A DNA stretch of 64,000 nt, from the NCBI RefSeq assembly GCF_003991565.1, contig NZ_CP032819.1:1054001-1118000 (forward strand), written 5' to 3'. Positions 38,918 through 55,260 of this stretch are shown here, in pieces (the stretch's first letter is position 1; each line of letters starts with the position of its first letter). The position numbers were made by a program, and so were the translations under genes. The notes below the pieces were generated by a model, which saw only the letters and a program-made list of their open reading frames with translations, searched no databases and was not told the DNA's origin. The stretch is from Butyricimonas faecalis (lineage in GTDB: Bacteria; Bacteroidota; Bacteroidia; Bacteroidales; Marinifilaceae).

Positions 38918-38960
38918 AGCTACCCCCTCTAACTCCCCCTTGCACAGGGGGAGAAGGTAG
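38918..38960 (+). repeat. GC-rich palindromic repeat unit (half copy)
   Basis: The block from AGCTACCCCC to GGAGAAGGTAG contains CTCCCCC (38933-38939) pairing with GGGGGAG (38947-38953) around TTGCACA. Its first 24 bases are nearly the inverse complement of the sequence at 55238-55262, the right half of the unit split by the IS110 element. It lies just after prfC, where it could act as a terminator. Confidence 0.65.
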
Positions 38961-53894: not shown

Positions 53895-53962
53895 CTACCT
53901 CCCCTAACCCCTCCTTGCACAGGAGGGGAAACCGCTTGGTAATCAACTCTCCCCCTGTGTAA
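53895..53962 (+). repeat. Left part of a GC-rich palindromic unit split by the IS110 element
   Basis: It runs from CTACCTCCCCTAACCCCTCC through TTGCACAGGAGGGG, the loop GAAACCGCTTGGTAAT, to CTCCCCCTGTGT just before the element. Together with 55234-55260 it rebuilds a unit of about 92 bases whose outer arms are inverse complements. Diverged copies lie at 27541 and 38918. Confidence 0.75.
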
Positions 53963-54034
53963 CCTTAGCTTTGTATCATGAAAAGTAAATGGAATAAAAA
54001 AGTAATATTTATATTTGTAAAGTATGAACTAATT

Positions 54035-54170
54035 TGAAAGAAAGGAAACCGAGGTGTGAACCGTGAGCTGTGTTTGAAAACAGCTTCATCCCCCTATTTG
54101 GACACCTTGGCTTTCTTGAACGGGGACCTGTATAAGAAATTAACTTTCTTGTTGTTAAGGTTTTTAGGTG
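54035..54170 (+). ncRNA. Candidate bridge RNA of the IS110 element
   Basis: The 5' non-coding end folds into two parts. First: CCGAGGTGT (54049-54057) pairs with ACACCTTGG (54102-54110), enclosing a hairpin AGCTGT/ACAGCT (54066-54085) and the stretch TCCCCCTATT (54089-54098). That stretch is exactly complementary to the right junction AATAGGGGGA (55234-55243). Second: hairpin AAGAAA/TTTCTT (54134-54150). ATAAGAA (54132-54138) repeats the element's right end (55229-55235), and GTTAAGGTT (54154-54162) is complementary to its left end (53961-53969, one G-U). The order target loop then donor loop, and the sense of each guide, agree with the IS621 bridge RNA model. RNA ends are not known. Confidence 0.7.
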
Positions 54171-54214
54171 ACGTTCAATATCCTTTCCCTCTTCAAATTG
54201 CTAAACACAAAGAT

Positions 54215-55212
54215 ATGGAAAACTTTTATTTTATCGGGGTAGACGTTAGTAAAAAGAAACTTGATTTTTGCGTGTTGCTAAACGGCACGATAGTTCTTGA
54301 AGAAGTAGTAAACAATAACATCCCGTCGATACGTCGTTTCCTGGAAACGTTCTTGGTTGATTTTAAAACCTCGATCGATAACCTGCTAGTCTGTGCCGAG
54401 CACACGGGGCAGTACACCTTCCCCCTGTCAATCGCTTGCCAGTCTCTCTCTTGTGGTTTATGGCTTGAAAATCCAGCGCAGATCAAGTATTCTTCGGGCT
54501 TCTCACGTGGGAAGAATGACAAGGTCGATGCTCACCGAATCGCTCGCTACGCCTCTCGTTTCAGTGACAACGCTCGTTATTACCAGCGTCCTCGGGAAGA
54601 GATCGAGCGCCTCAAGCAGTTAAGGAACGAGCAAGACCTTTACAAGTCGGACTTGGCCAAGTACAAGGGGCAACTCTCCGACCAACGAGAGTTCATGCTT
54701 GATCGAGTCTATCAAGAGAAGGCTCAAAGACTGGAACGGTTGATAGAAGAGCTGGAAAAATTGATCAAAGATATCGATCTACTCGTCGAGACAATTATCC
54801 GTTCCTGCCGTGTTCTCTGGCGGCAGCGGGAGTTGTTGCTATCAGTCGAGGGGTTGGGCCGAGTGTCGCCCTTTGCTTGATCATCGAGACTGAAGCGTTC
54901 ACGCGCTTCGATGATCCCCGCAAGTTCGCCTGTCATGCCGGGGTAGCACCTTTCCGTTACACCTCGGGAAGCAGTCAACATTCCAGGAACAAGGTATCCC
55001 AGCGGGCGAACAAGCAAATCAAGACGTTGTTACACATGGCTGCCTTGTCGATCACGGGAAGGAAGTCTGGTGAGTTAAAGGCGTATTACGAGAGAAAGGT
55101 TAAGGAAGGAAAGAACAAGATGACGGTCATTAACGCGATCAGGGCAAAGCTGATCGCGAGAATGTTTGCTGTCATCAAAAAAGATCAATTTTATACCCCT
55201 GTTTATTCATGA
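54215..55212 (+). pseudogene. IS110-family transposase, frameshifted
   Basis: The start is the ATG at 54215 (MENFYFIGVDVSKKKLDF); an earlier in-frame start at 54056 would lie in the RNA region. The RuvC-like catalytic residues are D10, E62 (CAEHTGQY), D102 and D105 (NDKVDAHRIARYA), and a coiled coil covers about 140-195. At about residue 214 the frame changes: SVEGLG continues as PSVALCLIIETEAFTRFDD only if one base is restored in the GGGCC run at 54856-54860. The transposase domain with RYTSGSSQ, which should hold the serine nucleophile, follows and ends at 55212. As read, the protein stops at 54880. One missing C explains everything. Confidence 0.85.
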
Positions 55213-55233
55213 AATATTTGCATAAATCATAAG

Positions 55234-55260
55234 AATAGGGGGAGTTGGAGGGGGTAGCTT
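55234..55260 (+). repeat. Right part of the palindromic unit split by the IS110 element
   Basis: TAGGGGGAGTTGGAGGGGGTAG begins right at the element's end. Its inverse complement is nearly identical to the start of the copy at 38918 and pairs with the left part at 53895. Confidence 0.75.

Follow-up and report, generated by a model that had tools for sequence, protein, structure and literature searches.

The IS110-group element at 53961-55237 of the window (the 64,000-nucleotide stretch of Butyricimonas faecalis DNA analysed here; all features given below lie on its + strand) is a member of the recently described family of RNA-guided recombinases, with an unusual reading of its two crossover bases. 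Judged from its sequence, it is very probably an insertion sequence that moves by bridge-RNA-guided recombination, with crossed core guides being most likely a particular of its clade. Systems of this kind have been known since 2024; unequal cores combined with crossed guides are a variant that is worth an experiment. The evidence comes from the borders of the element, from unoccupied target sites, from the matching of guides and flanks across relatives and from covariation in the RNA fold.

The genome (G000; 4.98 Mb in two contigs) contains eight near-identical full-length copies of the element and, besides these, a single 199-bp right-end fragment. Seven copies measure 1276 nt between the borders as first assigned, three of them sharing two substitutions relative to the other four, and the window copy is one base shorter. 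Alignment of the copies reveals a one-base deletion near 54850 in the window copy, which shifts its recombinase frame to a stop at 54880; the frame is intact in the seven other copies. The initial annotation did not mention this broken frame. It had recognized the element as an IS110 member, which was borne out by the protein of an intact paralogue, in which the Pfam domains DEDD_Tnp_IS110 and Transposase_20 both score above cut-off. The DEDD RuvC-like N-terminal domain and the serine Tnp domain of the IS110 group are hence both present, albeit in different frames in the window copy, where ORF reading and the alignment of the eight copies yield a first part at 54215-54880, and ORF reading together with an alignment of the intact copy to IS621 yields the serine-bearing remainder at 54877-55212. 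The intact recombinase matches the solved recombinases of IS621 (E 4e-19) and ISCro4 (E 4e-18), and its acidic and serine motifs align with those of IS621, the equivalence to D11/E60/D102/D105/S241 being judged by motif only. Its best named matches are found in Parabacteroides, Bacteroides and Phocaeicola, and a search of viral contigs returned two relatives at 30% identity. The left non-coding end comprises 252 nt (53963-54214) versus about 25 nt on the right, as in IS110-group elements with the RNA on the left.

The borders were defined by comparing occupied with unoccupied sites. All eight copies read TCCCCCTGTGT-AA-CCTTAGC on the left and CATAAGAA-TA-GGG on the right, with a right flank of GGGGGAG in seven and GGGAGAG in one; TGTGT-AA|CCTTAG and AAGAA-TA|GGG therefore describe all eight occupied sites, each with AATAGGG at the right junction. 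Unoccupied versions of the same repeat are present in G000 as 21 exact matches to CTCCCCCTGTGTAAGGGGGAGTTRGAGGGGGT and 23 more with at most one mismatch in the right part, 44 altogether, in a search that allowed one mismatch and did not extend to more divergent repeats. The initial annotation had placed an AA core at both borders and derived the exact right end from it. This does not hold, because AATAGGGGG occurs in none of these 44 unoccupied repeats, 21 of which read exactly TGTGT-AA-GGGGG, while AATAGGG occurs in all eight occupied sites: the site before insertion was TGTGT-AA-GGGGG, and the TA at 55236-55237 was brought by the element. By this comparison, the target core is AA and the donor core is TA, in place of the identical CT core that characterizes both DNAs of IS621. 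Along the sequence, the host repeat forms the left target CTCCCCCTGTGT (53949-53960; the same in the eight copies from TCCCCCTGTGT on and present in the 21 exact unoccupied repeats), followed by the target-derived left core AA (53961-53962; TGTGTAAGGGGG in the unoccupied repeats) and by the right-donor half CCTTAGC (53963-53969), which is the left end of the element in the alignment of the eight copies and reads CCTTAG or is CTTTAG-like in relatives. The right end of the element, defined by the same alignment, is the left-donor half CATAAGAA (55228-55235), followed by the donor-derived core TA (55236-55237), found at all eight right borders and absent there from the 44 unoccupied repeats, and by the right target GGGGGAG (55238-55244), which belongs to the host repeat according to the copies and the unoccupied repeats.

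One unoccupied repeat, in L022, equals the window site across 47 bp to the left and 31 bp to the right of AA. The empty-site check of the ends that had been proposed with a sister strain was thus carried out with unoccupied repeats of the same genome, and it placed the right border elsewhere. In genome G007 of the same genus, a related element is inserted into the same repeat with a shift of one base to the left, and 44 exact unoccupied sites there all read TGTGYAAGGGGG, under a search pattern that permits only two bases at the AA position. G000 and G007 are the only genomes for which unoccupied sites prove the origin of the left core. The target repeat is present in four of five other genomes of the genus and in none of five genomes from other genera of the family; the gene on the left flank of the window copy has matches in G010, G009 and G007. 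At 38933-38953 of the window and at many places of the genome lies the palindromic repeat CTCCCCCTGTGYAAGGGGGAG, which is dispersed and extended on its right-hand side; four of five other genomes of the genus have it, with up to 66 exact copies in G009, some of them as close inverted pairs, and none of five from other genera.

Several further loci deserve a description in their own right. The lone right-end fragment (G000:C1:1890797-1890995; L009, L153; 199 bp) has a normal target repeat, CTCCCCCTG, as its left neighbour, and on the right it continues into TA-CCTTACCGTG, a sequence similar to the left end of the element and located where a long open frame of the opposite strand ends; the fragment may record recombination at a donor-like site. 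In L034, a stretch of about 42 bp at the left end is duplicated in tandem, and the TA-CCTTAG donor half with it. The Parabacteroides copies L047 and L048 have a right flank in common over the approximately 70 bp compared, and their left flanks differ farther out.

The left non-coding end contains a segment, 54040-54186, that by its predicted fold and its covariation is the modelled part of a bridge-RNA gene of the IS621 type. The fold consists of two stem-loops and has a z-score of -2.95, with 0/200 shuffled sequences being as stable. The outer stem of the target loop pairs AGGTGT (54052-54057) with ACACCT (54102-54107), and four of its six pairs show changes on both sides in relatives; for the outer stem of the donor loop, TTGAAC (54116-54121) with GTTCAA (54173-54178), this is true of five of six pairs. 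The fold is conserved in 11 aligned near relatives, in which 88.5% of the pair cells are kept and 11 of 19 pairs have both-side changes (shuffle mean 5.8; 1/500 shuffles as high), a count favoured by the fact that the consensus structure was derived from the same 11-sequence alignment. The covariation score of the near relatives is 0.42 versus 0.20 (0/500 shuffles), with all slid versions scoring lower. A covariance model built from the 11 sequences gives 130 bits for the window RNA, whose own sequence is included in the model, and 69 bits at the expected place in L091; among 24 distant elements it detects the RNA in 11 with E values of 1 or less, L102 scoring highest at 48 bits, and misses it in 13. 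Alignment of the 24 distant relatives by MAFFT yielded only three consensus pairs, and an Rfam search gave no match within the element. The covariance folding that the initial annotation had suggested as a check thus returned compensatory changes in the near relatives.

The guides that had been read from this single locus stood up to closer analysis. ATAAGAA (54132-54138), the left donor guide, is identical to 55229-55235, and GTTAAGGTT (54154-54162) complements AACCTTAGC (53961-53969) with one G-U; within it, GTTAAGG (54154-54160) is the right donor guide to CCTTAGC, including the G-U, and the following TT (54161-54162) is the donor-loop core guide, which complements the target core AA and not the donor core TA and which, across 33 elements, covaries in this register with the target core. 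The guides have the order and the strand sense known from the IS621 bridge RNA. Likewise, TCCCCCTATT at 54089-54098 is the exact complement of AATAGGGGGA (55234-55243), as claimed, but it does not complement the pre-insertion site, since of AATAGGGGGA only AGGGGGA is found in the empty site and AAT came with the element. By its complementarity, TCCCCCTATT is a reading of the right target, the donor core and two donor bases, which is the strand present after exchange: TCCCCC (54089-54094) is the right target guide, matching GGGGGA in 6/6 positions, and 54095-54098 hold TA opposite the donor core and then TT opposite the last two left-donor bases (the handshake bases), the complement of donor AA-TA. 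Of the proposal that insertion, core and RNA can be deduced from one locus, the reading of the bridge RNA remains, and the core and the right border had to be corrected with the help of the unoccupied repeats.

A clean left target guide had been reported missing, with TGTGAA at 54055 as a weak match. We reject TGTGAA as the left guide; it overlaps GTGAACC, which occurs in 8 of the 11 aligned near relatives with various targets. A better candidate exists: the missing guide is probably CTGTGT (54068-54073), which repeats the final six bases of the left target and is positioned as in relatives, namely 11 nt after a conserved GAACC (about 10-13 nt by eye in L040, L047, L050 and L054). Against this assignment, the predicted fold places its CTGT in a hairpin stem; the core positions of the left guide (TT) do not match AA.

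To compare guides with flanks, 24 elements and nine added later were used, mostly from Bacteroidota, the record of L081 being labelled Chlorobiota. The 24 remained from 28 tabulated elements after exclusion of the copies L034, L038 and L048 and of L064, a copy of L063; the nine came from the 34 loci L096-L129, among which L096, L109, L111-L114 and L127 are copies and 18 were missing a border or a readable RNA by the patterns employed. Loci that did not have both borders or the N-terminus were excluded, as was L036, whose borders were not found. In these 33 elements the six-base right guide matches its own flank at 4.45/6 positions versus 1.75 for the flanks of others (0/20,000 permutations), and at 4.11 versus 1.76 in the nine later elements alone (1/20,000); the guide matches of the initial annotation thus exceed chance, and loops covary with their own flanks, as its proposed check across homologous copies had called for. 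For the left guide, the longest common word averages 5.39 with the own and 3.54 with other flanks (0/20,000; 32/20,000 for the nine later elements alone). The guides of the 33 elements were first placed by eye with the flanks known; right-guide registers derived from an alignment agree with this placement in 32/33 and give 143/198 matches (0/20,000), as against 47-67/198 upon slides of 1-3 bases. An unanchored longest-match test of 25 elements was noisy, with the own flank strictly best in three elements on the right and six on the left, and its sums lay beyond all 10,000 permutations. Guides that match and covary in this way were found for the target loop, and the donor guides match the ends of the element and barely vary. 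Misfits on the right among the later elements are L101 (1/6) and L121 (3/6). In L101, the left target is normal and the right flank, CTTTAGTTG, resembles the element's own donor half and not what its right guide calls for.

The 33 elements also allowed us to follow the core. The two borders agree in the second core base in 33/33 and disagree in the first in 19/33. Between copies of one element, the left core varies and the right core is constant (T, C, T versus T, T, T in G007; G, C versus T, T in L075/L084). This fits a left core derived from the target and a right core derived from the donor, the outcome predicted by the top-strand cleavage behind the core that is described for the IS621 structure. 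In the target loop, base 8 pairs with the donor core in 32/33; the donor base is T in 31 elements, and both elements with C have a G in the loop. In the donor loop, base 8 pairs with the target core in 21/33 and wobbles in six more (permutation mean 10.1; 0/20,000), and it pairs with the donor core in 18/33, which is also above the permuted values (228/20,000). Broken down by target base, A is faced by T in 7/7 cases, T by A in 12/14 and G by T in 5/7, and C faces A in three and G in two. The alignment-derived donor-loop register gives the same 21/33, and slides of 1-3 bases leave 3-11/33 core-base pairs; the left border of L069 was moved by one base, and the donor-loop registers of L055, L059, L061, L065 and L069 were set by hand. 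Upon thinning below 50% and below 45% identity, 11/16 (versus 5.2; 46/20,000) and 8/11 (versus 3.7; 100/20,000) pairs remain. Among the 19 elements with unequal cores, the donor-loop base pairs with the target in eight, wobbles in six and pairs with the donor in five (L035 in the last two groups); that of L055 pairs with neither core except for a wobble with the donor. Five elements with a left end only, which stood outside all tests, comprise two that pair with the target core (L124, L126), two that wobble (L116, L119) and one that is unpaired (L108). The next donor-loop base pairs with target position 7 in 17/33 (17/20,000), position 7 being a published handshake base of IS621 (PMC11208158), and at handshake base 6 no covariation with the target was detected (10/33; 3,420/20,000). 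In the window element, neither donor-loop handshake base (TT) forms a Watson-Crick pair with the target (G-T).

In IS621, which has CT in both DNAs, the incoming core pairs with the opposite loop after exchange (PMC11208158). On balance we lean towards the view that in Bacteroidota IS110 elements the target and donor cores may differ, and that the guide base at the first core position suits the strand arriving after top-strand exchange. If this is true, the handshake spans positions 6-8, targets with a core unlike the element's own become usable, and genome sequences directly reveal the parentage of both junctions. The published search, which takes cores as a repeated sequence near both ends with CT prioritized (PMC11208160), would then tend to miss unequal cores. 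We saw no report of unequal cores in the literature searched, a set that leaves most subscription papers and preprints outside. Since both IS621 papers report that cores other than CT also work (PMC11208160, PMC11208158), we treat the unequal core as a variant of the IS621 type.

Other readings of these data have to be considered. If both borders had an AA core, the empty site would have been TGTGT-AA-TAGGGGGA; the right guide would complement it in full, and the element would use no other kind of site. The right guide is indeed the exact complement of the right junction, and the donor-loop core guide TT would suit an AA core, but with AATAGGGGG missing from all 44 unoccupied repeats every such site would need to be occupied; moreover, most relatives that have other targets also show TA as the last bases on the right, which is what one expects if TA belongs to the element. 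We therefore rejected this reading, which in our estimate is very improbable. Even less credit is due to the idea that the 5' non-coding stretch is a cis-regulatory leader with incidental guide matches: such a leader would explain why the stretch is structured and lies directly upstream of the recombinase gene, but not why, from relative to relative, its loops track the host flanks, sequences outside the element.

More weight has to be given to shared ancestry or the choice of borders, instead of selection, as the reason why donor-loop base 8 is associated with the target core, in which case position 8 would not be read. In favour of this are the relatedness of the elements, the T at donor core base 8 in 31/33 and the five of the 19 unequal cores that pair with the donor instead. 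Nevertheless, the signal survives both thinning steps (100 and 46 of 20,000), is lost on a register slide and is seen in the near as well as the distant group (A with T in 7/7), so that we regard this explanation as possible but rather doubtful. It is similarly unlikely, in our opinion, that the window copy is a dead remnant that is uninformative on function when taken alone. Its frameshifted recombinase gene speaks for this, a remark that is true of the protein only, since the copy has exactly the same ends and RNA as the seven intact ones and may thus be mobilized in trans. Hence, the window copy could move only with protein supplied by one of the seven intact copies.

In the preferred mechanism of guided recombination with crossed core guides, the element would leave as a circle. 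Joining of the right to the left end would place TTTG (55217-55220), a -33-like promoter half, 20 nt from TAGCTTTG (53966-53973), a -7-like half that fits TAnnTTTG, and in this way a promoter of the Bacteroidota type seems to be restored where the ends of the circle meet. The Bacteroides fragilis consensus is quoted as TAnnTTTG at -7 and TTTG near -33 in PMC7366714, which reports that no such -33 motif could be found for Flavobacterium. With joined ends, TTG stands 19-21 nt before the -7 region in 31/33 elements (26 at exactly 20) versus 4/33 in the integrated form, and 2,000 base shuffles averaged 1.3 and never exceeded 7, figures that look stronger than they are as the elements are related and not independent. 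The full TTTG is present in 11/33 joined ends and an exact TAnnTTTG in 19/33 left ends. Circle-formed promoters are known for IS621 (PMC11208160, PMC11208158) and ISEc21 (PMC11187229); here, a scarless circle intermediate is inferred from the rebuilt promoter alone. Since the promoter would form at the joined ends, the RNA would be made mainly from circles. In the RNA (54040-54186), one loop would hold the palindromic repeat CTCCCCC-TGTGT-AA-GGGGGAG and the other the circle junction CATAAGAA-TA-CCTTAGC, upon which the recombinase would cut the top strands after the core and swap them, so that the left border keeps the target core and the right border the donor core. The particular of the clade would be that the first core base may disagree between target and donor, the facing RNA base in each loop suiting the strand that arrives after exchange; with loop bases written for the arriving strand, the IS621 handshake (positions 6-7) would extend to core position 8.

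One locus together with its unoccupied sister repeats thus resolves target, donor, core and guides down to the single base. Crossover bases that need not match would, for bridge recombinases as a tool, mean a relaxed core constraint, and a simple design rule would follow, namely that core guides are written for the incoming strand. For a phylum that has a promoter code of its own, the rebuilt junction further suggests a way in which bridge-RNA expression is restricted to the circle.

Among the known systems closest to the element is IS621, whose recombinase is homologous over 320 residues at only remote sequence similarity. As described for IS621, the RNA lies in the left end, the target loop precedes the donor loop, and in each loop the 5' side reads the bottom and the 3' side the top strand (PMC11208160, PMC11208158). 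A circle-junction promoter, read here from sequence, and a palindromic repeat (REP) as the target are further likenesses (PMC11208160, PMC11208158). It differs from IS621 in the AA target and TA donor cores instead of CT in both DNAs, in a handshake that apparently includes position 8 in addition to positions 6-7, and in a Bacteroidota-type promoter motif instead of an E. coli sigma-70 promoter. The ISCro4 recombinase (PDB 9t56) is homologous, a likeness that rests on the structure-database match. ISEc21 and its seekRNA (PMC11187229) share the IS110 type, an upstream RNA that picks the target and a circle in which the ends abut and a new promoter arises, and the same paper describes ISMch6 as a natural case of redirection. 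In contrast, ISEc21 has a linear target in other insertion sequences; a target duplication is not seen, and the section on it contains no unequal core (PMC11187229). A further close system is the IS110 element of the same genus in G007 (L034, L038, L040), with a recombinase of 63% identity, the same donor ends and the same host repeat as its target. Its crossover lies one base further left (TGTG-YA|CCTTAG, AAGAA-TA|AGGGGG), its right guide reads ...CCCCTTA versus ...CCCCCTA in the window element, and it has a clear left guide, CCCCTGTG.
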